Below, piece by piece: positions 12,564-45,524 of a stretch of DNA of 64,000 nt; the first letter of the stretch is position 1; every line of letters begins with the position of its first letter. The stretch lies in contig JAMXDE010000061.1 of the NCBI GenBank assembly GCA_026770025.1, positions 248,001 to 312,000 of the forward strand, in the 5' to 3' direction. This DNA is from Craspedostauros australis (lineage: Eukaryota > Bacillariophyta > Bacillariophyceae > Mastogloiales > Achnanthaceae). A program made the translations under genes and the position numbers. The notes below the pieces were generated by a model that did no database searches, had not been told where the DNA came from, and saw nothing but the letters and a program-made list of their open reading frames with translations.

Positions 12564-12568
12564 AAACC
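12564..12568 (+). repeat. Target-site duplication, left (AAACC)
   Basis: AAACC directly precedes LTR1. The same five bases directly follow LTR3 at 45520-45524. Five bases is the normal Copia duplication length, so the whole array sits in one insertion site. Confidence 0.85.
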
Positions 12569-13111
12569 AGTTGGGACAGACTAGCTCCGGGACTGACTCG
12601 GGAATTGACTGTCCATTCCGCGTACACGGTACTCGGTACCCAATACCGATACTGTGATGAAAGGCTACCACACCCACGATGTGTAGTTGAACTGCAATCC
12701 TTGCGTTGCTCGCCCTCCAGCTCATGCACCCCTGCCACCTGTCCACCTCGTCACCCTGCCGAACATGCATTTGTATTGAAGCATATCCATGCGGATGGAT
12801 CAGCTACTGCTCTACGGGTGATGATACTGGAAGACTGTGTGTGTGGAGGATCACCACGGCATGCTGCTGCGCAACAAAGAACGGCTGAAGTACGACAGCA
12901 CGAACCCCACCTTTTTACTCGATCGTCCTATCAATAGTAAGCTTAACACATAAAACAAGCAATCAGAAACAATCTTCACAGCTTACTTCCAAGTTTACTA
13001 CAGTTATACCATCGTCTGATACAGCTTTGCTTTCAACATCAAACGGCGTCAAAGCCGGTTGAAGGACAGATCATCCTCCTGACAACGTGCAGAAGACACG
13101 GAATACTAACT
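12569..13111 (+). repeat. Outer element LTR1 (543 bp)
   Basis: Begins AGTTGGGACAG and ends ATACTAACT, so the termini form the inverted repeat AGTT...AACT instead of the usual TG...CA. Differs from LTR2 and LTR3 at one base, about 240 bp in. Contains a small hairpin, ATCCAT-GCGG-ATGGAT, at 12785-12800. Confidence 0.9.
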
Positions 13112-13123
13112 GGTAGCTGCGAG
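13111..13123 (+). other. Probable primer-binding site of outer element, unit 1
   Basis: TGGTAGCTGCGAG at the LTR1 edge starts with the TGG that pairs with a tRNA CCA end. The T overlaps the last LTR base. The tRNA identity is not certain. Confidence 0.45.
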
Positions 13124-13461
13124 TGGTTCTCGCTTACATCCACCTTCCTCACTCTCAAAGAGACTTCCTCAAGTGCGCAGACCGCTGTGTCCAACGACAC
13201 TGAGCCCAAAGGCTCCAAGCCTCTCAGGACCAACGACCCTGACTAGCAATCTATGACGTTAGCCCGAAGGCAACTCATCAAACCAAGCCCTTGCTAAGCA
13301 AGCGCATCCACCAACACCTGCAAACCAGGTGTACGTCTCAAGAGCACTCCTGCCAACACCCCGTGCACACCTTCATCATCGAAGGGGGAAGCGCAGCCAA
13401 GCCCGAGACAACCGTCGACACCAAGCGAAGACCAACAACTTCGACACCTCCACCGCCAACC

Positions 13462-16080
13462 ATGAGCGTCCAAGGAGAAGACACGAGCATCAGCAGCGAA
13501 GAACGCAGGCTGGAGGCCTTCGTGGAGCGGCTCAACCAACAAGCCGCTCAAGCCCTTCGAGATCTCAACGAATCACGAATCTCGCGAGGAGCTAACCCCA
13601 TCCCAGCCCGGCAAGGAAACCAAACGGCCACCGGGCAAGAAGAAGGCGACCTCGCCCAAGACAACATCGGGGATGCCAACAACCCACCGAACCCGGGTGA
13701 AACCGAGGGAACCGCAGGACGCGAAGGGAACGCAGGCAACCAAACTGGATCCACTGGAGGTGCCTTTCCCTTTGATGCCGACGAAGACCCCATCGGACCC
13801 GAAACCACGTACGTGGCGTACGAAAGCGAAGACAAGCCAGAGAAACCCATCATGGGTGGTCTCACCAAGGCCGGTCGCCACTGGGTACCATGGACGGGAG
13901 GGAAACCGAACGTCGAATGGACAGGCCTCGCTGAAGACGCAGCCCTGTCCTACGACAGCTCCCAACAGCAGCGCGTCCTCCACAACGGCTCGGACTCCAA
14001 GAACCAACCGGAGCGGGAGAAAGGCATCCGCCCACGCTTCCGAATCGGGGACAACCGCCAGCGCATGCTGCGCCTCCTCAAGGACCATATGTCCACCGCA
14101 GGTCTCATCTCGATGACCTACATGAGGAGCAACGAACACCCTGATGAGATGGTGTGTGTCCTCGACGCCCCAGGCAGCACCACCATCAGCCAAGCCACTG
14201 ACCACCACGACGCCTATCGCCACTTGTGGGATCGATACGACAAGCAGAACAACGCATCTGCCGCTCGATTCCTACGCGACAGCCTTGACCCCGACCTCGA
14301 AGACCGCCTGATGAACCGCATCAAGCCGAAGTATCAACAAGACTTCAACGTGATCTTCACCGAACTCATCAAGAGTATCACCTCGAGCTCGCTGGACAAG
14401 TACGCACGGCTCCAAGAGAAGGTCAGAAAGACCACGCCCCAGAAGTTCCAGGGAGAGAACATCCAAGCCATGGCTGACGCTCTTCGCATCATGTGCAAGG
14501 AACTTCAAGACGCCGACCAGTTCGAGATTTCGCTCCTCCGTACCATGACAGACAACTTCTTCATGGCAGGAGGCAGAACCACGTCAGGAGAACGATACCG
14601 TCATCGAATCCTCGACATCAGCGACCGACTCAGACGACTGATCGAAGACAAGTCCCTCAAGACCTACGAGCGAGCGGAACCCCACCTTCTCCGCGAGGAC
14701 CTCACGTGGATGGACATCTGCAGCGTAGCCGAGGATGCCTATCTCGACGAACTGCAGGGAAACTCCTGGCACGCCAACAGGCACTCTCGTGACCGCAACA
14801 CCCCGCGCATGCATGCAAACCACTCCTCAACTACAAAGGAAGCTCGTCTTCTGGAACAGAACAAAGGAGGCAAACGCATGAACGCCAAGGGCAAACAGGC
14901 CAACAAGAAAACACAGCAAAAGAAGGACCCTTGGATCACAACACCCCCACGGAAGGGTGAGCCACAACAAAAGCTCATGAACAACAAGACCTTCCACTGG
15001 TGCGCGAAGTGCCGCCACTGGCGCATCTCCCACGGCACAGCCGGCCACATCGACGACTTCAAGCACAAGCCAAACAGCCCACAGCTCGAAATCGACCATG
15101 CAGCATGGACCTGCCTCTCCGCCGAAGCTCACGCAAACGAACGCTCCTGGTGGGCCGCCGTGTGGAACGTGTTCACTGCCTTTGAAACCATCAACATCGT
15201 CACCGGCACCTTTCTCCTCTTTTGTGCAGCACAAATCTCTCTACTCGGCATCGAGTGTGGATGGCATGTAGTGAGTATCATGATGTGGATGACGACAGCC
15301 ATTGTGCTATTCGCCCTTCACACCAACGTCCCACGCCAGTACCAGCCAACTCCAATGCGAACCATCCGCCAGGTCAACACGTGGAGGAAGAAACAAAACA
15401 AGTCAAATAGAGCAAGACCACGCTTCTATCACTACCCGGCAACGCCCTCGAACGATCTCTACGACTCTCTGTTCGGGAACGACGACTTCAAACATTTTCT
15501 CCTTCACAAGCGCACCAACGCGAAACATCACGCCCCACGTCACGCCCCAAGTGCGAACCACCAAAACAAAACTCGCCGCGCTCGCCGGTTCCCAAAACAC
15601 CAAAACTCCTGTCGCGCGCGAAACCAAATGAATCCCGCTCGTCCACCGAACCGGCACACGAAACATCACTGCGACTTTTACCACTTAAGGACTTCCACTC
15701 GCTTCAAGCGGGGGTCTCACACAGATCCAAGTGAACATCAGAGTCTCCGCCACAACGGTAACACAAGCGAAGCACAGCCTCATGGACACACAGGCACCAG
15801 TCTAATTACCAACGCCTACCACACCCTCGCAACAACCTTCGGTTTCCAACATGCCTTCGCCGCACCCCACAAGGTGGAAGGCATCATCCCTCAAGACGGC
15901 TCCTTCGATGTGGTATGGGACACCGGCGCCTCCATCTGCGTGACCAACGATATTAACGACTTCGTGGGCCCTACGTCTGCTCCAGCCTCGCAAACCTTCC
16001 TCAACGGGTTTCTTCGCCGCACCAAGGTAAAGACGAAAGGCAGGGTTGAATGGTCCATCCTCGACGTCAACGGCAACCCT
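13462..16080 (+). CDS. Outer Copia element unit 1: Gag and protease region
   Basis: The first good ATG is at 13462 (CCAACCATGAG). The frame is open to the inner element junction. The N-terminal part is acidic and Gly/Asn-rich. The Gag-like helical core follows (about 14220-14760), then a Lys-rich segment and a CxxC...H...H cluster near 14998-15060 that may be a zinc-binding knuckle. About 15130-15330 encodes two strongly hydrophobic stretches, unusual for Copia Gag. The aspartic-protease motif DTGA is at about 15919-15930. The reading frame nominally runs 120 bases into the inner LTR, but that is host-element sequence ending, not coding design. Confidence 0.8.
16075..16080 (+). repeat. Inner element target-site duplication, unit 1 left (AACCCT)
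   Basis: AACCCT directly precedes the inner 5' LTR and recurs at 24010-24015 directly after its 3' LTR. Six bases is one more than typical for Copia. Confidence 0.85.
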
Positions 16081-16873
16081 TGTCGAGATGTACATGTGAG
16101 TATATATCAAGATGTACGTGTATATGTGCATCGTTCACCCGCTATTCTCTCATACGCACTTGGACGGTATAACTATACTCGTGTCGATAGTATGCTGTGA
16201 TTCGTCAGAATTACAGGGGAAATGGAACACACAAAAAGGGGCAAGATTTCTGGAGGAAATTTGCAAATAACGATTTCTGGAAGAATCAGAAAATCGTCCG
16301 TCCATGCATCAATGGTACCAAGAGAATCTCGAGGTACTTCCCAACTAAACCTCAGATGACGATATCATCTGACAGACTACTGCATCACCAATGGAACGTG
16401 ACATCTGGAGAGCAGAAGGACGCCTACTGACGTCGACAGGATGTCAACATGTCACCACGTCGACAGATGTCTCCAAGTCAGAGCAGGAGGCGAAGATACG
16501 ATGACCCATGAAGATCATGGATACTGAAGGTGAACTTCAAATGGTAAGTACTCATGGAGTAGAAGCCAGTACTGAATGAACAGAGTGTCGAATACGGAGC
16601 ACGCATCAAACACGGAGGATCGTGTAGCACGAGCACACGATGTTGAGAGAGAGAGAGAGAGAATACAGAGAGGAGCGAGAGAGGATCTCGCGTACCGACT
16701 CATAGTCGGAGACCGAATCTACGAAACAGATTGAAGCGCCGAGAGCATCGGGCAAGAGAACGGGCGTACACCGAGAGCATCGGAGTAGCCAAGTAATGAA
16801 ATAGCAAACAGACGACTATCAACCAACACCATCTTCCACGATCGTAGGTTACCGTGCGCGGAACTTGCCAACA
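16081..16873 (+). repeat. Inner element 5' LTR, copy 1 (793 bp)
   Basis: TG...CA termini. Contains CCAAT (16388-16392), a CRE-like TGACGTCG (16428-16435) and a nine-unit GA tract near 16644-16661, followed by the leader palindrome CGTTTATAAACG right after the LTR edge (16872-16883). CRE/AP-1-like sites in diatom Copia LTRs have been tied to stress response in Phaeodactylum. Any such role here is inference. Confidence 0.88.
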
Positions 16874-16955
16874 CGTTTATAAACGATAGATCAGGGCGAG
16901 CCCGCGAATCGTATCGTGCGAGGAAGACGAACATCATTCAAGAGCAGCAGGCTGA

Positions 16956-19900
16956 ATGAGCGAGGAAGAGGAATTGAAAGACATCCCTCTGTCCAATCCG
17001 ACTATCAAGAGAGAAGAAGGTGCGAGTGAGACTCCACCACGAGAAGAGAAGGAAGCAGCCGCGGCTACTGTCCTATCAAGCGCAGACGCAAGCGCGATCG
17101 ACGAGACCGAAGAAGAACGGTCTGCAAGACTACATCGTAAGGAGAAGAGGATTCTCAAGGCGATCAAGCAAGAGGAGACTGGTGTGACGAAGAGCATTCG
17201 CACAGCCAAACAGGGTGGGAAAAGTGAGACACCACCAGGAGGAGAATTTGTGACGAAAACAATCTCCGCGCAACAACAGGCGAAAATCGAAGAATCGACA
17301 ACACAGAAACAGACGAAAATCAAGGGCGCGAGCGCACCAACGACGAAACAACGAATCAACATGGCGACATCAGCCAACGTGAACAAGCGACGCATCAAGG
17401 CGCCGATGTTCAGCGGTGAACAGGAAGACTACAGCGCATGGGAGTCCCAAGCGAAGGCATACGCTCGTGCACAGAAGACGAGAGACGTGATGTTGGGCAA
17501 GACCAAGGTGCCAACAGTGAGCGAGATCGCGGCAGCCGCCGATGAAGACAAGGAAGCGATGGAGGAGATCTACGAGCTGGGATGCGATTGCTTCAGCGAT
17601 CTGATCCTCATGATGGATGCAGAGAAAGGAAAGGGCAAGCAAGCCATCCAGTACATCAACCAATGCATCTCCGTCGACTACCCCGAAGGAGACGCACACG
17701 GAGCGTGGAACGTTCTCGCGGAGAAGTTCCGACCATCCGACGCAGTAACGAAGATCAAACTCAAGCGCCAATTCAACAACGAAAAGATGAAGAGAGACAC
17801 GGACCCCGACATCTACATCACGCAACTCGAGAGTCTACGATCGCGTCTCCACGATGTCAAGTACGAGATCACAGACGAGGAAATGATCATGCAGATCCTC
17901 AGCACGGTGAGCGTGGAATACAAAACCCATGTCGTGAACTTCCAACACCAACTCACGTTCAATCCGGAACTGGTTACCATCAACGCGATCAGAGGAGTAC
18001 TCCGTACTGCATACGCCACCCACAGAGGAGGCAAGGCATACGTCGACGACTTCCAAGACAGCAACACGAAGAGCAACGACACCGGCTTCACAAGCACCGG
18101 TAACTTCAAGGGTACTTGCCACAACTGTGGCGTGTATGGCCATAGATCCGCCGATTGCCCAGAACGCAAGAAACCGAACAACAAGAAAAACAACAACAAC
18201 AACAACAAGATGAACGGAAAGCGCAACAAGGGAAGCGGCTTCAAGGGCAAGTGCAACTACTGCGGCATCTTCGGACATCGCGAGGCGGAATGTCGAAAGA
18301 AGAAGTTCAACGAGAAGAAGAACAACGAACAAGCCAACGCGGCTACGGAAGGACACGACAAGAGCGGGCACGAGATGGTACTCTCTGCAAAGGACATGCC
18401 GCTCTGCATGTTGGTGTCCGACGACTACATCGAAGACTCCTTCTTCGATAACTTCGAATACGTCGGGAGTGACGACGAAGTGCAGGATGATGAGATCATC
18501 CCGGAGTGGCTCAGTGAGGAGCCAATCATCCACGAGGTGGATCCAAGACGCGAAGTGAGCTACGAATGCTGCTTCAACGCGCACGACCTGATCGGTTCAT
18601 ACGGCGACGAAGCTGAGATGGACGAGGCCAACGATAGCGACATCGAAGAGGCCATGAGCGATGACGACGACGACGACGCCGACGAGGACGGCGCAGATGA
18701 AGACGACGAGGCGAACCGTGACGAGTTGCCTCCTCCTCAAGCTGGGAGATACGAGAGAACGGGAACCTTCATCAATCAAGGCGAAACGCGCCGCGCCGCG
18801 GCGCCGCCTCCTCCAGCGGCGGGGAACAATAGATCGGGCATCTTCGACGAGGATGACAGCGACGAATCCGAGGACGGCAATCATCCAGACGACAGCTTCA
18901 ATCCAAACGAGCGTGTCGTCTATCCATCGAATATCGACTTCCCGGATATTGAGAATCCCAATAGCGTCGACTACCTCCTCCGTCACAGCACCATCCCGAA
19001 TGCAACAGCAACAGCATTGATAATCCAAAAGCAGCTCATCTTTGACGCCGTGATGGAAGCGGGAATGCGAGTATTCCCAGGAACGACACGAGGAGCACTC
19101 ATGCCAATATGGGTGAACATGATGGGATCCATCCTATCCGAGCACTTCGACTCAATCGAAGAGATCCTCGCCAATGCAATCATCGTCAACCGCATACTGG
19201 AAGGGAACGACTCGGAAACGATCCCAGATACGGATCTGCATTACATCCTTGGAGGATGCATGCGCGTGCTCTTGCGAGAGCGATCACGCGTCTACCCATA
19301 CGATCCAGCCACAGGATCTCATCGGAACACTACGATTCCATCGGACTACGCGCAACTACCCGACGACATGGATGACGGAGACCATCATCATCCATACAAC
19401 GAAGATGGAGTCCACGAAGACAACGACGACGGCAGCTTCGACGACGAGATAGCTGCGGCAGCTGTGGAGCAACTCCACGAACTGAGCACCAAGTACAAGG
19501 ACAAGGTCAACAAAGACACCTGGCTCGCCGATGGCGGAGCTTCGTGTCACATCGTCAACTCGGACGCCGCTCTCTTCAACGTGCGGCACATCAAGTCCTT
19601 CGTCCAAGTGGGAGACAGCACGAAGCTGGACTCTCCCAAGATGGGATCCATTCGTTTGAAAGTCAAACAGCGAGACAACACTGGCCACGTCATCCGGCTC
19701 GATGATGTGAAGTACACACCCAAGATGGCGGTGAACCTTTTCTCCACGAACAAGGCTCTGTACAACGGTTACCAGCTTGGTAACAACGGCATTCTGATGG
19801 ACATCATCAACGGATCCGGAACGAAGATCGTGTTCGATCGAGTCTTCCCCACATCCAACGGATTCATCACGGGAGTGCAGATGCATCCCATCATGCCAAC

Positions 19901-22900
19901 AGACGACGACAAGGCTTGCACAGCCATCGTCAAGAATCCATCCAAGGAGATCAGCGCGGTGAACTTGCACCGAATGCTCGGCCACGCGCCACTCGAGACC
20001 ATGAAGCGGACGGCCGCTCAATACGGATGGAAAATCATCGGCGAGATGCCGGTGTGTCGTGACTGCGCGGTCGCGAACGCAAGAGTGAAGAATATTCCGA
20101 AGGCAACTATTCCAAGAGCTACTCGCCGCGGCGAACGGTTCTTCATTGACATTAGTTACACTAAACACATAAGCTTCGGAGATAAACGCTACTGGACCCT
20201 GATCGTGGACGACTGCACGGATCACTGCTGGAGTTTCTTTCTCAAGAACAAGAGTGATCAACCAGGATACATCAAACGATTCATCCAGACGATCAAGTCA
20301 CAGACTGGTGACCAACAGATCATCTTCCGAGGTGACAACAGCGGAGAGAACAAATCCACGGAGGATATTCTCATCGATGCAGGACTCAACGTGAAATTCG
20401 AATACACGGCATCGAACACGCCGCAACAGAACGGAAGAGTGGAACGCAAGTTCGCGTACCTCTACACCAAGATTCGCTCCATGCTCAACGGAGCACAGCT
20501 CGATGAAGAGTATAGGCATGGCCTGTGGGCAGCAGCTGCTAGCACTGCCACCGCCATCGCCAACATCACCGTAGCGAAGAATCAGAGAAAGTCACCACAT
20601 CGACAATTCTTCGGCAACGATCCACCATATGCGGACGCGCTCCGCACATTTGGAGAGGTGGGTGTTGTGAAGACTACCTACGGCGGGATTACCGCGAAAC
20701 TCAAGAACAGAGGAGAAGAGATGGTGTTCATCGGATATGCACACCAACATGCATCAGGGGTCTACAACATGTACAGACCATCGACCAAGTCACTCATCTG
20801 TTCACGCGACATCAAGTGGCTCAACCAATCATACGGACAGTTCCGTGGTTGGGCACCAGCACCGAACATATCCAACGAAACAGGAACAACGGACGCAGAC
20901 GGCTTCACAACCATCGGACGAAAGGGAGCAACGCCAAGGACGGCAACGCGTCAAACATCGGAAGCGAAGAGAGTATCTTTCGCTGACAGCAACAGGTACT
21001 ACATTCTATCAGACAGTGATGACGAGGATAATGAGGACGACGGAGTAGTGACTCAACTAATCCAGAATGACGAGGAAGATCGGAGCGAATCCAATCATGA
21101 GGATGACGAAATCCTACCCTCCGGCGACGAAGCCGATGACGAGACAGGTGTCACTCCTCCGAACACACCAGCAAGGTCTACACATGACACACCATCTAGA
21201 TCTCCACCAAGCAAACCAAACAAGCGTGACATAGCTAGAAAGGAGAGGATCCGACGTCACGAAGCACGAGGCAGGAAGGGAGAAGCTAATCCCAAGCCAA
21301 CCACAGGGAAGAGTATTCCCAGAGCTCTGCGCGAGCTCGAAGACTTCAACGAACGAGGTCGAAAGGAAGAAGGCTATGAGAGCGATCCATCATCCAGTGA
21401 GGCGAGTGACGAACTCAGCGACGAGATGATCGACGATTCCAACAACGAAACTACAGATGATGAAGAAATCGAAGACGAAAATGAAGAGATCGAGATCACT
21501 CATCATAGCACAACAGGACTATACGGAATGAATGCAATCATCACCGAGAAACCAGCGATCGACATCGGATTGTCGATGCAGGACGAGAACAAGGAACCAG
21601 AGAAGCACATCGAACCTACAACGTTCGACGGAGCCTTCAATCACCCAGATCCTATCCATCGGAAGGGATATCGAGCAGCCATCAAGAAGGAGTTCGACTC
21701 CATGGATACACGCAAGGTGTATAGCAAGATCAAACGAGACGCCATCCCACGCGGCCGCAGATGCTGCAAGTGCAAATGGGTCTTCAAACTGAAGCGTGAC
21801 GGCACACATCGAGCACGGCTCGTTGCATGTGGCTATTCACAAGTTGCAGGAGTAGACTTCCAAGAGCATTACTCACCCGTCATCCATGACGTGACCTATC
21901 GGGTCATGATGGTGATCATGCTAATCAAGAAGATGGACTGCGCACTCGTCGATGTCGTAACGGCATTCCTACATGGAGACCTCGACGAGGAGATCTACAT
22001 GAACTGTCCCAATGGGATGGATCATCAACCAGACGAAGCCCTGACCCTACACAAGCCAATCTACGGACTTGTGCAGAGCGCCAGGCAATGGTTCAAGATG
22101 TTGGTATCGACCCTCAAGAATATCAACTTCGAACAGAGCGCAGCAGACCCGTGCCTGTTCTACAGGAAGACGAACGAAGGAAGCATGATCGTGGCCATCT
22201 ACGTGGACGATTGCTTCTGTTGCGGAGACTCCAAGGCACTGGAGACATTCCTGAAGGACATCCAAGGCAGCAAATTCAAGGTGACAATCGAGCGCGGACT
22301 CGGAGACTACCTCAGCTGCAACATCGAATTGAACCATGACAAGACTAGAGCGACATTGCGTCAACCACATCTCATCCGACACCTCATCGAAGAGTTCGGA
22401 GCCAAAGTTGAGAAGATGCAACGTTATGGGACACCGGGAACCCCGGGTCAAATCATCGTACGACCATCCGAAGATAACGGACTGCAGAAGGTCGGACCGG
22501 AAGAACATGCCGAATACCGCCGAGGCGTCGGTATGCTACTCTTCCTCATCAAGCACTCGCGACCAGATATCGCGAACCCTGTGAGGGAACTCTCCAAGGT
22601 ATTGATCGGGCCCACCAAGGCCGCAATGAAGGAGATGTATCGGATCATCAAGTATGTGATCGATACAAAGGACTATGGATTGAAGATCCATCCAGCGCGT
22701 CCAGATGACGACGGCTGGGACATGGAGCTCTTCTGCGATAGCGAATATGCAGGAGACAAGAATACAAGAATCAGCGTAGGGGGATTCATCCTATACCTGT
22801 GCAAGGTACCAATCCTTTGGCGATCCAAGGCACAGAAGGCCGTCACACTCAGCTCATCCGAAGCAGAATACGTTGCCCTTTCCGAAGCGGCAAAGGAGAT

Positions 22901-23198: not shown

Positions 23199-23210
23199 CC
23201 GAATGCACAC

Positions 23211-23218
23211 AGGAAGGG
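23211..23218 (+). other. Polypurine tract of inner element, copy 1
   Basis: AGGAAGGG lies directly before the 3' LTR, the standard place for the plus-strand primer. Confidence 0.7.
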
Positions 23219-24009: not shown

Positions 24010-24015
24010 AACCCT
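24010..24015 (+). repeat. Inner element target-site duplication, unit 1 right (AACCCT)
   Basis: Same six bases as 16075-16080. They mark the point where the outer element resumes. Confidence 0.85.
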
Positions 24016-28689: not shown

Positions 28690-28762
28690 GGGCATCACAA
28701 ATTGTGAACTGTTGATCGAACGATGGAGGTTTTTACACCGGGGACATGCTTCGCACTACGCC

Positions 28763-29314: not shown

Positions 29315-29664
29315 GGTAGCTGCGAGTGGTTCTCGCTTACATCCACCTTCCTCACTCTCAAAGAGACTTCCTCAAGTGCGCAGACCGCTGTGTCCAACGA
29401 CACTGAGCCCAAAGGCTCCAAGCCTCTCAGGACCAACGACCCTGACTAGCAATCTATGACGTTAGCCCGAAGGCAACTCATCAAACCAAGCCCTTGCTAA
29501 GCAAGCGCATCCACCAACACCTGCAAACCAGGTGTACGTCTCAAGAGCACTCCTGCCAACACCCCGTGCACACCTTCATCATCGAAGGGGGAAGCGCAGC
29601 CAAGCCCGAGACAACCGTCGACACCAAGCGAAGACCAACAACTTCGACACCTCCACCGCCAACC

Positions 29665-33076: not shown

Positions 33077-33158
33077 CGTTTATAAACGATAGATCAGGGC
33101 GAGCCCGCGAATCGTATCGTGCGAGGAAGACGAACATCATTCAAGAGCAGCAGGCTGA

Positions 33159-36100
33159 ATGAGCGAGGAAGAGGAATTGAAAGACATCCCTCTGTCCAAT
33201 CCGACTATCAAGAGAGAAGAAGGTGCGAGTGAGACTCCACCACGAGAAGAGAAGGAAGCAGCCGCGGCTACTGTCCTATCAAGCGCAGACGCAAGCGCGA
33301 TCGACGAGACCGAAGAAGAACGGTCTGCAAGACTACATCGTAAGGAGAAGAGGATTCTCAAGGCGATCAAGCAAGAGGAGACTGGTGTGACGAAGAGCAT
33401 TCGCACAGCCAAACAGGGTGGGAAAAGTGAGACACCACCAGGAGGAGAATTTGTGACGAAAACAATCTCCGCGCAACAACAGGCGAAAATCGAAGAATCG
33501 ACAACACAGAAACAGACGAAAATCAAGGGCGCGAGCGCACCAACGACGAAACAACGAATCAACATGGCGACATCAGCCAACGTGAACAAGCGACGCATCA
33601 AGGCGCCGATGTTCAGCGGTGAACAGGAAGACTACAGCGCATGGGAGTCCCAAGCGAAGGCATACGCTCGTGCACAGAAGACGAGAGACGTGATGTTGGG
33701 CAAGACCAAGGTGCCAACAGTGAGCGAGATCGCGGCAGCCGCCGATGAAGACAAGGAAGCGATGGAGGAGATCTACGAGCTGGGATGCGATTGCTTCAGC
33801 GATCTGATCCTCATGATGGATGCAGAGAAAGGAAAGGGCAAGCAAGCCATCCAGTACATCAACCAATGCATCTCCGTCGACTACCCCGAAGGAGACGCAC
33901 ACGGAGCGTGGAACGTTCTCGCGGAGAAGTTCCGACCATCCGACGCAGTAACGAAGATCAAACTCAAGCGCCAATTCAACAACGAAAAGATGAAGAGAGA
34001 CACGGACCCCGACATCTACATCACGCAACTCGAGAGTCTACGATCGCGTCTCCACGATGTCAAGTACGAGATCACAGACGAGGAAATGATCATGCAGATC
34101 CTCAGCACGGTGAGCGTGGAATACAAAACCCATGTCGTGAACTTCCAACACCAACTCACGTTCAATCCGGAACTGGTTACCATCAACGCGATCAGAGGAG
34201 TACTCCGTACTGCATACGCCACCCACAGAGGAGGCAAGGCATACGTCGACGACTTCCAAGACAGCAACACGAAGAGCAACGACACCGGCTTCACAAGCAC
34301 CGGTAACTTCAAGGGTACTTGCCACAACTGTGGCGTGTATGGCCATAGATCCGCCGATTGCCCAGAACGCAAGAAACCGAACAACAAGAAAAACAACAAC
34401 AACAACAACAAGATGAACGGAAAGCGCAACAAGGGAAGCGGCTTCAAGGGCAAGTGCAACTACTGCGGCATCTTCGGACATCGCGAGGCGGAATGTCGAA
34501 AGAAGAAGTTCAACGAGAAGAAGAACAACGAACAAGCCAACGCGGCTACGGAAGGACACGACAAGAGCGGGCACGAGATGGTACTCTCTGCAAAGGACAT
34601 GCCGCTCTGCATGTTGGTGTCCGACGACTACATCGAAGACTCCTTCTTCGATAACTTCGAATACGTCGGGAGTGACGACGAAGTGCAGGATGATGAGATC
34701 ATCCCGGAGTGGCTCAGTGAGGAGCCAATCATCCACGAGGTGGATCCAAGACGCGAAGTGAGCTACGAATGCTGCTTCAACGCGCACGACCTGATCGGTT
34801 CATACGGCGACGAAGCTGAGATGGACGAGGCCAACGATAGCGACATCGAAGAGGCCATGAGCGATGACGACGACGACGACGCCGACGAGGACGGCGCAGA
34901 TGAAGACGACGAGGCGAACCGTGACGAGTTGCCTCCTCCTCAAGCTGGGAGATACGAGAGAACGGGAACCTTCATCAATCAAGGCGAAACGCGCCGCGCC
35001 GCGGCGCCGCCTCCTCCAGCGGCGGGGAACAATAGATCGGGCATCTTCGACGAGGATGACAGCGACGAATCCGAGGACGGCAATCATCCAGACGACAGCT
35101 TCAATCCAAACGAGCGTGTCGTCTATCCATCGAATATCGACTTCCCGGATATTGAGAATCCCAATAGCGTCGACTACCTCCTCCGTCACAGCACCATCCC
35201 GAATGCAACAGCAACAGCATTGATAATCCAAAAGCAGCTCATCTTTGACGCCGTGATGGAAGCGGGAATGCGAGTATTCCCAGGAACGACACGAGGAGCA
35301 CTCATGCCAATATGGGTGAACATGATGGGATCCATCCTATCCGAGCACTTCGACTCAATCGAAGAGATCCTCGCCAATGCAATCATCGTCAACCGCATAC
35401 TGGAAGGGAACGACTCGGAAACGATCCCAGATACGGATCTGCATTACATCCTTGGAGGATGCATGCGCGTGCTCTTGCGAGAGCGATCACGCGTCTACCC
35501 ATACGATCCAGCCACAGGATCTCATCGGAACACTACGATTCCATCGGACTACGCGCAACTACCCGACGACATGGATGACGGAGACCATCATCATCCATAC
35601 AACGAAGATGGAGTCCACGAAGACAACGACGACGGCAGCTTCGACGACGAGATAGCTGCGGCAGCTGTGGAGCAACTCCACGAACTGAGCACCAAGTACA
35701 AGGACAAGGTCAACAAAGACACCTGGCTCGCCGATGGCGGAGCTTCGTGTCACATCGTCAACTCGGACGCCGCTCTCTTCAACGTGCGGCACATCAAGTC
35801 CTTCGTCCAAGTGGGAGACAGCACGAAGCTGGACTCTCCCAAGATGGGATCCATTCGTTTGAAAGTCAAACAGCGAGACAACACTGGCCACGTCATCCGG
35901 CTCGATGATGTGAAGTACACACCCAAGATGGCGGTGAACCTTTTCTCCACGAACAAGGCTCTGTACAACGGTTACCAGCTTGGTAACAACGGCATTCTGA
36001 TGGACATCATCAACGGATCCGGAACGAAGATCGTGTTCGATCGAGTCTTCCCCACATCCAACGGATTCATCACGGGAGTGCAGATGCATCCCATCATGCC

Positions 36101-39100
36101 AACAGACGACGACAAGGCTTGCACAGCCATCGTCAAGAATCCATCCAAGGAGATCAGCGCGGTGAACTTGCACCGAATGCTCGGCCACGCGCCACTCGAG
36201 ACCATGAAGCGGACGGCCGCTCAATACGGATGGAAAATCATCGGCGAGATGCCGGTGTGTCGTGACTGCGCGGTCGCGAACGCAAGAGTGAAGAATATTC
36301 CGAAGGCAACTATTCCAAGAGCTACTCGCCGCGGCGAACGGTTCTTCATTGACATTAGTTACACTAAACACATAAGCTTCGGAGATAAACGCTACTGGAC
36401 CCTGATCGTGGACGACTGCACGGATCACTGCTGGAGTTTCTTTCTCAAGAACAAGAGTGATCAACCAGGATACATCAAACGATTCATCCAGACGATCAAG
36501 TCACAGACTGGTGACCAACAGATCATCTTCCGAGGTGACAACAGCGGAGAGAACAAATCCACGGAGGATATTCTCATCGATGCAGGACTCAACGTGAAAT
36601 TCGAATACACGGCATCGAACACGCCGCAACAGAACGGAAGAGTGGAACGCAAGTTCGCGTACCTCTACACCAAGATTCGCTCCATGCTCAACGGAGCACA
36701 GCTCGATGAAGAGTATAGGCATGGCCTGTGGGCAGCAGCTGCTAGCACTGCCACCGCCATCGCCAACATCACCGTAGCGAAGAATCAGAGAAAGTCACCA
36801 CATCGACAATTCTTCGGCAACGATCCACCATATGCGGACGCGCTCCGCACATTTGGAGAGGTGGGTGTTGTGAAGACTACCTACGGCGGGATTACCGCGA
36901 AACTCAAGAACAGAGGAGAAGAGATGGTGTTCATCGGATATGCACACCAACATGCATCAGGGGTCTACAACATGTACAGACCATCGACCAAGTCACTCAT
37001 CTGTTCACGCGACATCAAGTGGCTCAACCAATCATACGGACAGTTCCGTGGTTGGGCACCAGCACCGAACATATCCAACGAAACAGGAACAACGGACGCA
37101 GACGGCTTCACAACCATCGGACGAAAGGGAGCAACGCCAAGGACGGCAACGCGTCAAACATCGGAAGCGAAGAGAGTATCTTTCGCTGACAGCAACAGGT
37201 ACTACATTCTATCAGACAGTGATGACGAGGATAATGAGGACGACGGAGTAGTGACTCAACTAATCCAGAATGACGAGGAAGATCGGAGCGAATCCAATCA
37301 TGAGGATGACGAAATCCTACCCTCCGGCGACGAAGCCGATGACGAGACAGGTGTCACTCCTCCGAACACACCAGCAAGGTCTACACATGACACACCATCT
37401 AGATCTCCACCAAGCAAACCAAACAAGCGTGACATAGCTAGAAAGGAGAGGATCCGACGTCACGAAGCACGAGGCAGGAAGGGAGAAGCTAATCCCAAGC
37501 CAACCACAGGGAAGAGTATTCCCAGAGCTCTGCGCGAGCTCGAAGACTTCAACGAACGAGGTCGAAAGGAAGAAGGCTATGAGAGCGATCCATCATCCAG
37601 TGAGGCGAGTGACGAACTCAGCGACGAGATGATCGACGATTCCAACAACGAAACTACAGATGATGAAGAAATCGAAGACGAAAATGAAGAGATCGAGATC
37701 ACTCATCATAGCACAACAGGACTATACGGAATGAATGCAATCATCACCGAGAAACCAGCGATCGACATCGGATTGTCGATGCAGGACGAGAACAAGGAAC
37801 CAGAGAAGCACATCGAACCTACAACGTTCGACGGAGCCTTCAATCACCCAGATCCTATCCATCGGAAGGGATATCGAGCAGCCATCAAGAAGGAGTTCGA
37901 CTCCATGGATACACGCAAGGTGTATAGCAAGATCAAACGAGACGCCATCCCACGCGGCCGCAGATGCTGCAAGTGCAAATGGGTCTTCAAACTGAAGCGT
38001 GACGGCACACATCGAGCACGGCTCGTTGCATGTGGCTATTCACAAGTTGCAGGAGTAGACTTCCAAGAGCATTACTCACCCGTCATCCATGACGTGACCT
38101 ATCGGGTCATGATGGTGATCATGCTAATCAAGAAGATGGACTGCGCACTCGTCGATGTCGTAACGGCATTCCTACATGGAGACCTCGACGAGGAGATCTA
38201 CATGAACTGTCCCAATGGGATGGATCATCAACCAGACGAAGCCCTGACCCTACACAAGCCAATCTACGGACTTGTGCAGAGCGCCAGGCAATGGTTCAAG
38301 ATGTTGGTATCGACCCTCAAGAATATCAACTTCGAACAGAGCGCAGCAGACCCGTGCCTGTTATACAGGAAGACGAACGAAGGAAGCATGATCGTGGCCA
38401 TCTACGTGGACGATTGCTTCTGTTGCGGAGACTCCAAGGCACTGGAGACATTCCTGAAGGACATCCAAGGCAGCAAATTCAAGGTGACAATCGAGCGCGG
38501 ACTCGGAGACTACCTCAGCTGCAACATCGAATTGAACCATGACAAGACTAGAGCGACATTGCGTCAACCACATCTCATCCGACACCTCATCGAAGAGTTC
38601 GGAGCCAAAGTTGAGAAGATGCAACGTTATGGGACACCGGGAACCCCGGGTCAAATCATCGTACGACCATCCGAAGATAACGGACTGCAGAAGGTCGGAC
38701 CGGAAGAACATGCCGAATACCGCCGAGGCGTCGGTATGCTACTCTTCCTCATCAAGCACTCGCGACCAGATATCGCGAACCCTGTGAGGGAACTCTCCAA
38801 GGTATTGATCGGGCCCACCAAGGCCGCAATGAAGGAGATGTATCGGATCATCAAGTATGTGATCGATACAAAGGACTATGGATTGAAGATCCATCCAGCG
38901 CGTCCAGATGACGACGGCTGGGACATGGAGCTCTTCTGCGATAGCGAATATGCAGGAGACAAGAATACAAGAATCAGCGTAGGGGGATTCATCCTATACC
39001 TGTGCAAGGTACCAATCCTTTGGCGATCCAAGGCACAGAAGGCCGTCACACTCAGCTCATCCGAAGCAGAATACGTTGCCCTTTCCGAAGCGGCAAAGGA

Positions 39101-39401
39101 GATCTTCTTCGTCATGCAGCTACTCGAAAGTGTGGGCGTCCCAGTGAAGACACCGATCAAGGTCCGCGTGGACAACATCGGGGCGATCTTCATCGCCAAG
39201 AACCCATCAACATCCCAACGATCGCGGCACATCGACGTGCGCCATCACTACGTGAGGAACATGGTAATCAACAAAACCATCGAAATCATTTTCGTCAAAT
39301 CCGAGCAGAACACAAGCGACGGATTCACCAAGAACATCAAGGCCGACTTGCAACGTGAACATGAGAAGTCGTACCTTGACACATCGAGAACATTCGAATG
39401 A
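33159..39401 (+). CDS. Inner Copia element copy 2: Gag-Pol polyprotein (2,080 residues)
   Basis: Same length and domain order as 16956-23198. Its translation differs from copy 1 at one residue in the reverse transcriptase region. The YVDD motif and all integrase and RNase H marks are kept. Confidence 0.93.
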   Translation: MSEEEELKDIPLSNPTIKREEGASETPPREEKEAAAATVLSSADASAIDETEEERSARLHRKEKRILKAIKQEETGVTKSIRTAKQGGKSETPPGGEFVTKTISAQQQAKIEESTTQKQTKIKGASAPTTKQRINMATSANVNKRRIKAPMFSGEQEDYSAWESQAKAYARAQKTRDVMLGKTKVPTVSEIAAAADEDKEAMEEIYELGCDCFSDLILMMDAEKGKGKQAIQYINQCISVDYPEGDAHGAWNVLAEKFRPSDAVTKIKLKRQFNNEKMKRDTDPDIYITQLESLRSRLHDVKYEITDEEMIMQILSTVSVEYKTHVVNFQHQLTFNPELVTINAIRGVLRTAYATHRGGKAYVDDFQDSNTKSNDTGFTSTGNFKGTCHNCGVYGHRSADCPERKKPNNKKNNNNNNKMNGKRNKGSGFKGKCNYCGIFGHREAECRKKKFNEKKNNEQANAATEGHDKSGHEMVLSAKDMPLCMLVSDDYIEDSFFDNFEYVGSDDEVQDDEIIPEWLSEEPIIHEVDPRREVSYECCFNAHDLIGSYGDEAEMDEANDSDIEEAMSDDDDDDADEDGADEDDEANRDELPPPQAGRYERTGTFINQGETRRAAAPPPPAAGNNRSGIFDEDDSDESEDGNHPDDSFNPNERVVYPSNIDFPDIENPNSVDYLLRHSTIPNATATALIIQKQLIFDAVMEAGMRVFPGTTRGALMPIWVNMMGSILSEHFDSIEEILANAIIVNRILEGNDSETIPDTDLHYILGGCMRVLLRERSRVYPYDPATGSHRNTTIPSDYAQLPDDMDDGDHHHPYNEDGVHEDNDDGSFDDEIAAAAVEQLHELSTKYKDKVNKDTWLADGGASCHIVNSDAALFNVRHIKSFVQVGDSTKLDSPKMGSIRLKVKQRDNTGHVIRLDDVKYTPKMAVNLFSTNKALYNGYQLGNNGILMDIINGSGTKIVFDRVFPTSNGFITGVQMHPIMPTDDDKACTAIVKNPSKEISAVNLHRMLGHAPLETMKRTAAQYGWKIIGEMPVCRDCAVANARVKNIPKATIPRATRRGERFFIDISYTKHISFGDKRYWTLIVDDCTDHCWSFFLKNKSDQPGYIKRFIQTIKSQTGDQQIIFRGDNSGENKSTEDILIDAGLNVKFEYTASNTPQQNGRVERKFAYLYTKIRSMLNGAQLDEEYRHGLWAAAASTATAIANITVAKNQRKSPHRQFFGNDPPYADALRTFGEVGVVKTTYGGITAKLKNRGEEMVFIGYAHQHASGVYNMYRPSTKSLICSRDIKWLNQSYGQFRGWAPAPNISNETGTTDADGFTTIGRKGATPRTATRQTSEAKRVSFADSNRYYILSDSDDEDNEDDGVVTQLIQNDEEDRSESNHEDDEILPSGDEADDETGVTPPNTPARSTHDTPSRSPPSKPNKRDIARKERIRRHEARGRKGEANPKPTTGKSIPRALRELEDFNERGRKEEGYESDPSSSEASDELSDEMIDDSNNETTDDEEIEDENEEIEITHHSTTGLYGMNAIITEKPAIDIGLSMQDENKEPEKHIEPTTFDGAFNHPDPIHRKGYRAAIKKEFDSMDTRKVYSKIKRDAIPRGRRCCKCKWVFKLKRDGTHRARLVACGYSQVAGVDFQEHYSPVIHDVTYRVMMVIMLIKKMDCALVDVVTAFLHGDLDEEIYMNCPNGMDHQPDEALTLHKPIYGLVQSARQWFKMLVSTLKNINFEQSAADPCLLYRKTNEGSMIVAIYVDDCFCCGDSKALETFLKDIQGSKFKVTIERGLGDYLSCNIELNHDKTRATLRQPHLIRHLIEEFGAKVEKMQRYGTPGTPGQIIVRPSEDNGLQKVGPEEHAEYRRGVGMLLFLIKHSRPDIANPVRELSKVLIGPTKAAMKEMYRIIKYVIDTKDYGLKIHPARPDDDGWDMELFCDSEYAGDKNTRISVGGFILYLCKVPILWRSKAQKAVTLSSSEAEYVALSEAAKEIFFVMQLLESVGVPVKTPIKVRVDNIGAIFIAKNPSTSQRSRHIDVRHHYVRNMVINKTIEIIFVKSEQNTSDGFTKNIKADLQREHEKSYLDTSRTFE

Positions 39402-39421
39402 CCGAATGCACACAGGAAGGG

Positions 39422-40214
39422 TGTCGAGATGTACATGTGAGTATATATCAAGATGTACGTGTATATGTGCATCGTTCACCCGCTATTCTCTCATACGCAC
39501 TTGGACGGTATAACTATACTCGTGTCGATAGTATGCTGTGATTCGTCAGAATTACAGGGGAAATGGAACACACAAAAAGGGGCAAGATTTCTGGAGGAAA
39601 TTTGCAAATAACGATTTCTGGAAGAATCAGAAAATCGTCCGTCCATGCATCAATGGTACCAAGAGAATCTCGAGGTACTTCCCAACTAAACCTCAGATGA
39701 CGATATCATCTGACAGACTACTGCATCACCAATGGAACGTGACATCTGGAGAGCAGAAGGACGCCTACTGACGTCGACAGGATGTCAACATGTCACCACG
39801 TCGACAGATGTCTCCAAGTCAGAGCAGGAGGCGAAGATACGATGACCCATGAAGATCATGGATACTGAAGGTGAACTTCAAATGGTAAGTACTCATGGAG
39901 TAGAAGCCAGTACTGAATGAACAGAGTGTCGAATACGGAGCACGCATCAAACACGGAGGATCGTGTAGCACGAGCACACGATGTTGAGAGAGAGAGAGAG
40001 AGAATACAGAGAGGAGCGAGAGAGGATCTCGCGTACCGACTCATAGTCGGAGACCGAATCTACGAAACAGATTGAAGCGCCGAGAGCATCGGGCAAGAGA
40101 ACGGGCGTACACCGAGAGCATCGGAGTAGCCAAGTAATGAAATAGCAAACAGACGACTATCAACCAACACCATCTTCCACGATCGTAGGTTACCGTGCGC
40201 GGAACTTGCCAACA
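39422..40214 (+). repeat. Inner element 3' LTR, copy 2 (793 bp)
   Basis: Nine GA units, unlike the eight of copy 1. Preceded by the same AGGAAGGG polypurine tract. Confidence 0.9.
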
Positions 40215-40220
40215 AACCCT
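40215..40220 (+). repeat. Inner element target-site duplication, unit 2 right (AACCCT)
   Basis: Partner of 32278-32283. Confidence 0.85.
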
Positions 40221-43200
40221 CGATCCTTGTCTCTCCCGGCTTTCTATGTACCGGAGTCCTCAGTCAAGCTCATCAGCACCGCATGCCTCCTCAATGAATA
40301 CAAAGGGGAGAATATTGTCGTGGAAGCGAACAACATCCAGCTGAGCGGCATCCCTGGAAACAACGAACGAGGTCCCATCATCGCCCACAACAAGAAATCG
40401 AACAACCTTCCGACCTCACGTGCATATCGCACTGGCGACCTCATCGAACTCCCAGCGGCGCTCGCCACAACTGTAACTTCCGTGGCAGAGCAGAACCAAA
40501 ACCTGTCTCAACCGCAAAAGGAGCTGCTCAAGTGGCACTATCGACTCGGGCACCTCTCCTTCAGACGAGTGCAGTTCCTACTCCGATCCGGCGCCCTTGT
40601 CAACACTGAGGCATCACGGAAGATGCAAACAGCTGCCGCCCGCGTACAAGAATGCCCGTTGTGTGCGGCGTGCCAATTTGGCAAACAACACCGCAGAACC
40701 ACACCAGGCACAACGCAACACGCCGTACAAGACCGACAGGGTGTGATCAAAACGGATCACCTCTTCCCGGGTCAGCAGGTCTCAGTGGACCACTTCGTGG
40801 GACGCACTTTGGGCCGCCTCTTCACAGGAAGAGGCAAGTCCGATGCGTCGGAGATGTACAAGGGTGGCGCAATGTTCGTGGACCACGCGTCCGGCTACAT
40901 ACACGTGGAGCCAGTCGCATCCCTCACGACCCACGCTACGTTGGAAGCAAAGGAACGCTTCGAATCCATGTGCCGCGATGTGGGTGTGCCTGTGCGCTCG
41001 TACCTCTCGGACAACGCCACCACCTTTACATCGCCAGACTACGCCGAACACCTCAAACGGTTTCATCAAGTGCACCGCTTTGCTGGAGTCGGCGCCCACC
41101 ATCACAACGGAGTGGCCGAGCGCAGCATCCGCACGATCATCTCTATGGCACGAACAATGATGATGCATCAAAGCATTCATTGGCCTACGATGTTCGATGC
41201 CCAGCACTGGCCCATGGCCGTCGTCCATGCCGCTTACGTACACAACCGCGTACCAAGCGCAGCAACAGGACTCACGCCTTTGGATATTCTCTCGCGCACG
41301 CGCATGCCCCTGAAACAGCTACACAACCTACATGTGTGGGGCAGCCCCGTCTACGTCTTGAACAAGGCGCTCGGCGATGGCCGCAAGATACCAAGATGGG
41401 AACCACGTGGGGAGCGCTATGTAAACATGGGACTCTCCGCTCGCCACGCATCCACGGTTCCGCTGGTCCTCTCACCGAGGACAGGGTCAATCACACCACA
41501 ATTTCACGTTGTGTTTGACGATTGGTTCGCGACGATAGCGACTGATCTGGCTAATCTCCCAGACTACAATTCAACGGAATGGACGCACATGTTTGGCGAC
41601 ACTACGTATCAAATACCATTCGATGACGACGATGTCATTGCTATGGAAGAGCGGGACATCGAGCAAGAGGATGAAGCCGATCATCAGCGATTCCTTCCCT
41701 CACACGATGACGATCCACCAACAAAATTGTTGCCAGAAACGCCAAACACAAGAACCCCGATTGTGAATGAACAAAATGCACCAACTCACATTTTGAGGCA
41801 ACCCGTGACATCACACACGAAAACTGATGCCACTCCAATCGACCAAGTACAACCACCTCAGCAAATCAGCCGCTCGCCAACAACCATCGATATCAACAAG
41901 CCGATACCACCGATGCCGTCGACAGAGGGAGCCGGAGAAGATCCAGCAAGTCACGCTGAACCGTTGCCGCCAACAGAGGGAGTTGTCAACGACAACAGTA
42001 ACGACGACGTACAACCACCAATCGACTCTCCTCCGACTTCACCGCTGCGCAAACCCATCACCGCACAGACAGAGCAACCCACGACGAAGAAGGTAAAGCT
42101 ACCTCCACTGCGCCGCTCTGAACGCATCAACAAGCGCACACCACGAGAGCGACGGACCGTTGAGCGCCTCACCTACGACACCTTGGGCGGAAAAGTGGTT
42201 TGGGCCGACGACATCACACAACCATCCGAAACCAGCGCAAACGTAACCACTATCGCGACAAGTGAACCTAGCAAGGACCAAGCCGTGAAAGACATGAAGC
42301 ACGCTCTCCAAACCTGCCGCGCGACCCTTCAGCGCCACACAGCCCACACAGATGAGATAGTAACACAGAAGGCCCACGATCTGGTGCGCGACGCTGACTC
42401 CATGCTCCGAAATCTGGCGACAATCGACACCACCGAATTGACCTGGGAGGAACGACGTTGGGCGCAGGGCGACCTCGAGATGGAAAGGATGCTTCGCATC
42501 CAGCAACTTGAAATCCGAGCCAGGATGCGCAAGGAACAAGAAGAAGCGGCAGCCAGCAACGAGCACCACATCCTCATGATGAGCAATCACTCCGACTCGT
42601 CCTCGGAGGATGACGATCCACTTCCGGGCACCACAATGCGCCCCATCGACATCGGCCACCTTTGGCCACACCATGTCAACATCACTCGACACATCGGCCA
42701 TTACTTCGACCATGTAGTGCAATTTCGATTCCCGACGGAAGCCGCAAGGAGCCAGTGCGTTTACTACGCCATTCGCCGATTCGTCGATGCCGTCGAAGAA
42801 ATGCTCGAAACAGGCGAATACCACCTCCCCGTCTCATACTTCGGCTTCATACCAAGAACGCAAGGTCAGCGATACACTCTAGAACGGGCCATCGCCGCCA
42901 TGGAAAATGGCCTACGACCACCGGACGAAGACGAACGGGTGCAGGACTTCATGCGACGAGCGGGTTTCGCCTGGCACCTTATTACGCACGACGAGCGTTT
43001 TGAAATCGGCATACTGCACCTGCACATCCAACTCGGCGTCGCGCCGGAGGTACCACCGACAATCATGGCTCCGCCAAGCGAATTCGAACCGGCCGAACAC
43101 CGTGCCTCAGCTCCGACAAACGCTCATCTCCCACGACAACATGAAAATGACGAATCCGACGAACACTACGCGATGGCAGCAACCCTTGAGCACGATGGTG

Positions 43201-44894
43201 ACGACCACACCGACCACCACCGCGCCTTCATCACGTACGACTTGCTCAACTTCTTCACGACCGGGGGCGATCTCAGTATCTCGGATCGACACGTCAGCTA
43301 CAAGGCATCCAAGACCGATCCCGACACCCTCTCCTTCAGCGAGGCGATGAACGACGACAACAAACAAGAATGGATGGCGGCCGCACACAAAGAAATCCAT
43401 GACCTTACCAAAAAGGGGACTTGGATTGAGGTGCCAAAATCCACCGCTACTGACCGCATCTTCCCTGGCACGTGGGTGTTTCGGCGCAAGCGGATGCCCG
43501 ACGGCACGGTAAAGAAGTACAAGGGACGGTGGTGCTGCAGAGGCGACATGATGACTGAAACGGAAGCAACTTACGCCCCGGTCGTTGCCTGGTCCTCTGT
43601 TCGCGTCTTTCTCATCCTTTCCATTTTGCTTCGCTGGGTCACGACGTCAATTGATTTCTCAAACGCCTTCGTACAAGCCGACATCCATCGTCCGGTATAC
43701 CTACACCTTCCACGCGGATTCCGATCAACCAACGGACCCGATACATGCCTCAAGCTGATCAAAAGCCTCTACGGGTTAACTATAGCTCCCAAGCTATGGT
43801 ACCAACACCTTGTGCGTGCTCTCCTCGCGGAAGGATTCCACGCGTGTGATCAAGAACGGTGCCTGTTCATGCGCGATGGGATGATGATCGTCCTCTATGT
43901 GGACGATGCCGGCATTGCTTCGCGCACGGAAGAAGAAGCAGACGCATTCATTAAGTCCATGCGTAAGCGCGGATTTGATCTCACACGAGAAGGCACCTTC
44001 ACGGAGTTTCTGGGAATATCGCTACACAGAGATCCCAAGAACAACACCATCCACCTCAAACAAACCGGCCTCATCAACAAAATCATCGACGCCACAGGCA
44101 TGCAGAACTGCAAACCCAACGTGACACCCACAACACAACTTGCCCTTGGAACATCAATTGATCAACCTCCGATGAAGGAGGCATGGAACTACCGCTCCGT
44201 CGTTGGCATGCTACTCTACTTGACTACGAATACACGCCCCGACCTGGCCTTCGCCGTCTCTCAAGTGGCGCGATTCAGCAACGACCCTCGCCAGCCACAC
44301 GCAAAGGCAATCAAAATGATAGTACGCTACCTTCGCCACACCAACACCATGGGAACCATCGTGCGACCGACGGGTCAACTCAACCTGGAATGCTACGTTG
44401 ACGCCGATTTCGCAGGCCTGTACAAGCGCGAGGCCGACGACTCCCCAAACGCAGTACGCTCCCGCACAGGGTATGTTATCATCCTCGGCGGCTGCCCACT
44501 TGTGTGGAAATCGAAGCTGCAGACGGAAATTGCCTTGTCCACAATGGAATCGGAGTACGCCGCGCTGTCTCTCGCTATGCGCGCCCTCATCCCGATGCAA
44601 CAACTCATCAACGAAGTGAAAGCATCAACCAACCTCAACCAATCGCTGCAAACCAATATCCAATGCACAGTGTTTGAGGACAACGAGGCGTGTATCTCAT
44701 TGGCAACGAATCACAAGGTGACGGCACGAACCAAGCATTTCCTAACCAAATGGCACTTCTTCTGGCACTGGGTCAAGGAAGGTTTCATTCGGATCCTTCA
44801 CGTGCCGACACCCAACCAAATTGCCGACATCTTCACCAAGGGCCTCGCGCGGGACGCATTTGAGCATCTGCGCCGTATGCTCATGGGGTGGTGA
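40215..44894 (+). CDS. Outer Copia element unit 2: integrase, reverse transcriptase and RNase H region
   Basis: Translation is identical to 24010-28689, with the same HHCC finger, D-D-E core, extra domain before reverse transcriptase, YVDD and RNase H. Confidence 0.88.
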   Translation, partial: NPRSLSLPAFYVPESSVKLISTACLLNEYKGENIVVEANNIQLSGIPGNNERGPIIAHNKKSNNLPTSRAYRTGDLIELPAALATTVTSVAEQNQNLSQPQKELLKWHYRLGHLSFRRVQFLLRSGALVNTEASRKMQTAAARVQECPLCAACQFGKQHRRTTPGTTQHAVQDRQGVIKTDHLFPGQQVSVDHFVGRTLGRLFTGRGKSDASEMYKGGAMFVDHASGYIHVEPVASLTTHATLEAKERFESMCRDVGVPVRSYLSDNATTFTSPDYAEHLKRFHQVHRFAGVGAHHHNGVAERSIRTIISMARTMMMHQSIHWPTMFDAQHWPMAVVHAAYVHNRVPSAATGLTPLDILSRTRMPLKQLHNLHVWGSPVYVLNKALGDGRKIPRWEPRGERYVNMGLSARHASTVPLVLSPRTGSITPQFHVVFDDWFATIATDLANLPDYNSTEWTHMFGDTTYQIPFDDDDVIAMEERDIEQEDEADHQRFLPSHDDDPPTKLLPETPNTRTPIVNEQNAPTHILRQPVTSHTKTDATPIDQVQPPQQISRSPTTIDINKPIPPMPSTEGAGEDPASHAEPLPPTEGVVNDNSNDDVQPPIDSPPTSPLRKPITAQTEQPTTKKVKLPPLRRSERINKRTPRERRTVERLTYDTLGGKVVWADDITQPSETSANVTTIATSEPSKDQAVKDMKHALQTCRATLQRHTAHTDEIVTQKAHDLVRDADSMLRNLATIDTTELTWEERRWAQGDLEMERMLRIQQLEIRARMRKEQEEAAASNEHHILMMSNHSDSSSEDDDPLPGTTMRPIDIGHLWPHHVNITRHIGHYFDHVVQFRFPTEAARSQCVYYAIRRFVDAVEEMLETGEYHLPVSYFGFIPRTQGQRYTLERAIAAMENGLRPPDEDERVQDFMRRAGFAWHLITHDERFEIGILHLHIQLGVAPEVPPTIMAPPSEFEPAEHRASAPTNAHLPRQHENDESDEHYAMAATLEHDGDDHTDHHRAFITYDLLNFFTTGGDLSISDRHVSYKASKTDPDTLSFSEAMNDDNKQEWMAAAHKEIHDLTKKGTWIEVPKSTATDRIFPGTWVFRRKRMPDGTVKKYKGRWCCRGDMMTETEATYAPVVAWSSVRVFLILSILLRWVTTSIDFSNAFVQADIHRPVYLHLPRGFRSTNGPDTCLKLIKSLYGLTIAPKLWYQHLVRALLAEGFHACDQERCLFMRDGMMIVLYVDDAGIASRTEEEADAFIKSMRKRGFDLTREGTFTEFLGISLHRDPKNNTIHLKQTGLINKIIDATGMQNCKPNVTPTTQLALGTSIDQPPMKEAWNYRSVVGMLLYLTTNTRPDLAFAVSQVARFSNDPRQPHAKAIKMIVRYLRHTNTMGTIVRPTGQLNLECYVDADFAGLYKREADDSPNAVRSRTGYVIILGGCPLVWKSKLQTEIALSTMESEYAALSLAMRALIPMQQLINEVKASTNLNQSLQTNIQCTVFEDNEACISLATNHKVTARTKHFLTKWHFFWHWVKEGFIRILHVPTPNQIADIFTKGLARDAFEHLRRMLMGW

Positions 44895-44976
44895 GGGCAT
44901 CACAAATTGTGAACTGTTGATCGAACGATGGAGGTTTTTACACCGGGGACATGCTTCGCACTACGCCGAGAGGGAG

Positions 44977-45519
44977 AGTTGGGACAGACTAGCTCCGGGA
45001 CTGACTCGGGAATTGACTGTCCATTCCGCGTACACGGTACTCGGTACCCAATACCGATACTGTGATGAAAGGCTACCACACCCACGATGTGTAGTTGAAC
45101 TGCAATCCTTGCGTTGCTCGCCCTCCAGCTCATGCACCCCTGCCACCTGTCCACCTCGTCACCCTGCCGAACATGCATTTGTATTGAAGCATATCCATGC
45201 GGATGGATCAGCTACCGCTCTACGGGTGATGATACTGGAAGACTGTGTGTGTGGAGGATCACCACGGCATGCTGCTGCGCAACAAAGAACGGCTGAAGTA
45301 CGACAGCACGAACCCCACCTTTTTACTCGATCGTCCTATCAATAGTAAGCTTAACACATAAAACAAGCAATCAGAAACAATCTTCACAGCTTACTTCCAA
45401 GTTTACTACAGTTATACCATCGTCTGATACAGCTTTGCTTTCAACATCAAACGGCGTCAAAGCCGGTTGAAGGACAGATCATCCTCCTGACAACGTGCAG
45501 AAGACACGGAATACTAACT
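44977..45519 (+). repeat. Outer element LTR3 (543 bp)
   Basis: Right end of the array. Ends CTAACT and is followed at once by AAACC, the partner of 12564-12568. Confidence 0.9.
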
Positions 45520-45524
45520 AAACC
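45520..45524 (+). repeat. Target-site duplication, right (AAACC)
   Basis: Matches 12564-12568 and closes the array. Confidence 0.85.

Follow-up and report, generated by a model that had tools for sequence, protein, structure and literature searches.

A Copia element that carries a second Copia element is present twice, head to tail and with one long terminal repeat (LTR) shared between the two units, in a 64,000-nucleotide window of Craspedostauros australis contig JAMXDE010000061.1 (the window being the whole stretch of DNA analysed). The nested composite was probably doubled by unequal exchange between LTRs after both insertions had taken place, a reading that was given a probability of roughly 0.66.

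Self-BLAST of the window returned 12569-29314 against 28772-45519 as one large direct repeat (16,748 columns, 99.976% identity, two mismatches and one 2-base gap). A match of 16.7 kb is far beyond chance. Three outer LTRs of 543 bp, with start-to-start spacings of 16,203 and 16,205 bp, alternated in direct order with two internal regions (LTR-IN-LTR-IN-LTR; Table 1). LTR2 and LTR3 were the same and LTR1 was off by one base. This order and a 16.2-kb period had been claimed in an earlier sequence-only reading, whose limits of 12564-45524 proved right to the base. The single AAACC target site duplication (TSD) pair claimed there was found at both outer ends. None adjoined the middle LTR, which was bordered by body sequence (GGGAG on the left, GGTAG on the right). 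AAACC was common in the window (71 occurrences on the + strand and 24 on the - strand), so its weight rests on its position directly at both outermost LTR ends. The matching pair across the array fits one outer insertion. The array structure was read directly from the assembled bases, and the order of events set out below is its simplest reading.

Table 1. Coordinates of the array features and of neighbouring host open reading frames (ORFs) in the window
Feature	Position	Strand
Two ORFs with eIF3a matches	6722-7567 and 7705-10176	+
Glycosyltransferase-8-like ORF	10522-12306	-
Outer TSD AAACC, left	12564..12568	.
Outer LTR 1, 543 bp, AGTT..AACT, T at 12808	12569..13111	+
Outer element ORF, 5' part, unit 1, 946 codons, broken by inner element; gag by position only	13243..16080	+
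Inner TSD AACCCT, left, unit 1	16075..16080	.
Unit 1 inner Copia (7,929 bp), with LTRs at 16081-16873 and 23219-24009	16081..24009	+
Unit 1 ORF of the inner element, open over 2080 aa: gag, zinc knuckle, Pol_BBD, integrase (under cut-off), SH3-like, RVT_2	16956..23198	+
Inner TSD AACCCT, right, unit 1	24010..24015	.
Outer element ORF, 3' part, unit 1: gag_pre-integrase, integrase (under cut-off), RVT_2	24010..28689	+
Outer LTR 2, in the middle and shared by both units, no adjoining TSD, C at 29011	28772..29314	+
Outer element ORF, 5' part, unit 2	29446..32283	+
Inner TSD AACCCT, left, unit 2	32278..32283	.
Unit 2 inner Copia (7,931 bp), with LTRs at 32284-33076 and 39422-40214	32284..40214	+
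Unit 2 ORF of the inner element, open over 2080 aa; F1735L in the reverse transcriptase, owing to A38363	33159..39401	+
Inner TSD AACCCT, right, unit 2	40215..40220	.
Outer element ORF, 3' part, unit 2	40215..44894	+
Outer LTR 3, same sequence as LTR 2	44977..45519	+
Outer TSD AAACC, right	45520..45524	.
Guanylate cyclase and 3'5'-cyclic nucleotide phosphodiesterase fusion ORF, one frame	45917-48934	-
AlgH-like ORF	52327-54963	-

The outer element was classified as Copia (Ty1/copia) by its predicted RVT_2 reverse transcriptase (RT), matched in the 3' part of the ORF (3.8e-39) and preceded by gag_pre-integrs (4.4e-09). An rve match ahead of the RT was weak (E 0.021) and under the curated cut-off, and the 5' part gave two weak Pfam matches only, both under the curated cut-off. 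The outer RT region matched three stretches of a genome contig collection, none of which was confirmed, and no stretch of a viral contig collection. Outer LTR ends were AGTT..AACT and not the usual TG..CA. These ends are no bar to Copia membership, because 3 of 26 diatom Ty1/copia families also lack TG/CA ends in the available text of PMC2806351. The final T of the outer LTR together with the 15 bases after it (13111-13126, GGTAGCTGCGAGTGG) looks like a putative tRNA primer-binding site, perhaps for initiator Met tRNA; a search of the window for tRNA genes to match this site found none.

The inner element was likewise assigned to Copia (Ty1/copia), on the basis of a predicted RVT_2 reverse transcriptase (7.8e-42) and a Copia gag (Retrotran_gag_2, 7.4e-14). 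Its ORF also matched a zinc knuckle, Pol_BBD and an SH3-like domain, and an rve match at residues 1056-1148, ahead of the RT at 1597-1815, was weak (E 0.014) and under the curated cut-off. The inner LTRs were 793, 791, 793 and 793 bp in order along the window, with ends of the TG..CA type. The bases directly 3' of the inner 5' LTR do not start with TGG. A pattern search with the inner RT region matched 24 stretches of the viral contig collection, with none confirmed. From the RT onward, inner and outer C-terminal regions were alike in 137 of 520 aligned columns (26%), which places the two elements in different families.

Each inner element lies within the outer reading frame and is oriented like the outer element, with the 6-bp target duplication AACCCT on both sides (16075, 24010, 32278 and 40215). 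The insert including this duplication measured 7,935 bp, which is divisible by three, and the outer ORF keeps one frame in its two parts. The claim that the two bodies have an inner Copia in common was thus borne out, with the same site and the same AACCCT repeat in both.

A unit-to-unit walk over about 16.7 kb found differences at three places only: T12808/C29011 in the outer LTR (LTR position 240 of 543), C22160/A38363 in the body of the inner element, and a single GA unit (2 bases) in an inner LTR at 23799/40002. The near-perfect identity that had been claimed was found, at 99.976%. Body against body, there was one substitution in 15,660 bp; LTR1 against LTR3, there was one in 543 bp. In unit 2, F1735L is probably the derived state, given that the RT of the outer element carries F at the aligned residue. 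Three of the four inner LTRs had a (GA)n run of equal length, the run at 23219-24009 being 2 bases shorter. With one of four short, the difference is read most simply as a change that came after the duplication, or else as a sequencing error.

Both bodies contain one and the same guest, inserted at the identical base and flanked by the identical TSD, which indicates that the guest predates the doubling, unless gene conversion has spread it over at least 7.9 kb. The duplication is then most simply the third event. Under this simplest order, the guest in both bodies speaks strongly against two independent outer insertions that lay next to each other and were joined via their near LTRs with loss of the intervening DNA. 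Such a history would give three LTRs and two bodies, and recombination of neighbouring insertions via near LTRs is discussed for Cassandra in the accessible part of PMC7215508. It was rejected as extremely improbable: AAACC matches on both sides and the guest is common to both bodies at one base and TSD.

The shared guest also speaks against an outer element that arrived as a ready-made tandem, from a tandem transcript or joined cDNA, with the guest already in the RNA or spread later by insertion and conversion. A single TSD pair encloses the tandem, as such an arrival would have it, and this route is kept open for rice tandems in the portion of PMC11899658 available. Yet it would require either that an RNA of about 33 kb, reading through the inner LTRs, was packaged or that conversion extended over at least 7.9 kb, and the identical inner TSD is present in both bodies. 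If the outer insertion and the duplication were of one age, the chance that at least one of the two substitutions fell in the LTRs would be 0.096. With two substitutions in all, this is a weak hint that the outer insertion may be older than the duplication, and it argues weakly against arrival as a tandem, which is judged quite improbable. Very improbable is a history in which the composite was transcribed, reverse transcribed and integrated at AAACC as a joined double cDNA, the two Copia elements moving as one compound retrotransposon.

In the preferred reading of unequal exchange, a Copia element would have entered first at AAACC between two host ORFs. A distantly related second Copia would then have inserted in the outer reading frame with a 6-bp target duplication. 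Third, the 3' LTR of the nested composite would have recombined with the 5' LTR on a sister chromatid or homologue. One product would have become longer by a complete 16.2-kb unit, with a hybrid LTR in the middle, and its reciprocal would have been reduced to a solo LTR. We infer the exchange itself, the sister chromatid or homologue as its partner, and its date from the features described here.

The duplication begins and ends at LTR ends, as it must if the outer LTRs underwent homologous exchange. The hybrid middle LTR would then have taken its left portion from the 3' LTR and its right portion from the 5' LTR. At position 240 of 543 the middle LTR has the LTR3 base C and not the LTR1 base T, which fits the expectation for a break 3' of this site; 56% of the LTR lies 3' of position 240. 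Alternatively, the T/C difference could stem from a later mutation of LTR1 or from gene conversion. At 543 bp, the outer LTRs would offer only a modest substrate for recombination. The unequal exchange between outer LTRs claimed in the sequence-only reading hence agrees with the single TSD pair, the shared middle LTR, the common guest and inner TSD, and the base in the hybrid LTR.

A one-LTR circle, excised from the composite and returned by homologous recombination to an allelic element, would leave the same product as chromatid or homologue exchange, alike in sequence. One-LTR circles arising in retrotransposition are mentioned in the available text of the rice work (PMC11899658). However, a circle of the outer element made in that way would be expected to lack the inner element, so a chromosomally excised circle would be required, and two steps are needed, excision and re-entry. 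This route is regarded as improbable.

The foremost alternative to exchange, although an unlikely one, is an assembly duplication, in which the real locus has a single composite and the assembly program went round the LTR loop a second time or linked two haplotypes via the LTR. The joint sits in a repeat, and a contig joined at the LTR would yield exactly the order of the array. In addition, one of the three differences is the length of a GA run, a type prone to sequencing error. Against this, the two single-base differences indicate that the units are not copies of one consensus, allelic differences being possible. One substitution in 15,660 bp is also low for two haplotypes, although a young insertion could match it; in an outcrossing alga, two haplotypes are expected to differ by more. 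Long reads easily cross 543-bp repeats, though not always a 16.2-kb unit.

Taking 4.77e-10 mutations per site and generation as the rate for a diatom, the divergence of the bodies corresponds to about 67,000 generations (95% interval 1,700-373,000) and that of the outer LTRs to about 1.9 million generations (49,000-10.8 million). Within the inner LTR pair no substitution was seen over 791 bp, which allows up to 4.9 million generations. These intervals overlap, and no date is given weight for that reason.

LTR-IN-LTR-IN-LTR is a named type in plants for which exchange between LTRs is already a proposed origin, and the kind is not new. Ten such "complex" elements, three of them with nested guests, were found in Arabidopsis by LTRtype (PMC5379124, as far as its text was available), and 266 tandem LTR retrotransposons are given for a rice pangenome in the corresponding part of PMC11899658. 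The claim that such arrays are rarely seen in full was thus too strong for three-LTR elements as such. The present array resembles the Arabidopsis elements in its three LTRs and two internal regions. It differs from the three that bear guests, described there as younger insertions, since here the guest is in both bodies and most simply precedes the duplication. Rice TLI1 and TLI2 likewise consist of two elements with a common inner LTR, 5-nt TSDs and a single insertion, and the bodies of TLI2 are 99% identical (PMC11899658, available text). TLI1 was confirmed by four spanning long reads in that account. TLI2 as a whole sits in a MULE, while here the guest inside each body indicates the order of events. 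For the rice tandems, recombination and insertion as a tandem are both held possible in the same text.

Tandem Cassandra elements of plants also form arrays of LTRs and internal domains, ascribed to recombination or concatenated cDNA (PMC7215508, accessible part). Cassandra is small, without gag or pol, and forms long arrays, whereas two units with two coding Copia elements are present here. The diatom CoDi Ty1/copia elements described in the available text of PMC2806351 are of Copia type, as here, with LTRs of 153-844 bp and with inter-element recombination. Compared by description, CoDi full-length elements measure 5,182-8,062 bp, against about 8.8 kb for the outer element minus the guest and its TSD. 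Putatively autonomous LTR elements in two diatom genomes were mostly Ty1/copia in the same text (42 of 42 selected and 11 of 13). A non-exhaustive literature search, covering sources in part, found no published tandem with a guest in both bodies among the matches listed.

The locus is ordinary in kind, well preserved and modestly useful, the useful point being the guest in both bodies. The guest serves as a clock, or time stamp, and argues for duplication at the DNA level after insertion. It bears on the origin of shared-LTR tandems, a question stated as open in the available text of the rice work (PMC11899658). Provided that the locus is real, the frequency of each route could be measured by surveying guest-marked tandems, and the diatom array would add an algal case to the like structures mentioned there for plants, kangaroo centromeres and Drosophila.

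The array is 257 bp from the ORF on its left and 392 bp from the ORF on its right, measured from stop-to-stop ORF limits. The guanylate cyclase/phosphodiesterase architecture of the right-hand ORF is reported, in the part of the literature available, for genes of the pennate diatom Seminavis robusta that respond to pheromone, and it points to a pennate diatom as host. Further right, an LtrA-like match under the curated cut-off (55557-57507) was split over the overlapping ORFs 55557-56483 and 56299-57507, perhaps by an intron or a frame error. A direct repeat with a 66-bp period and 90% identity was found at 9911-10121, near the 3' end of an eIF3a-matching ORF.
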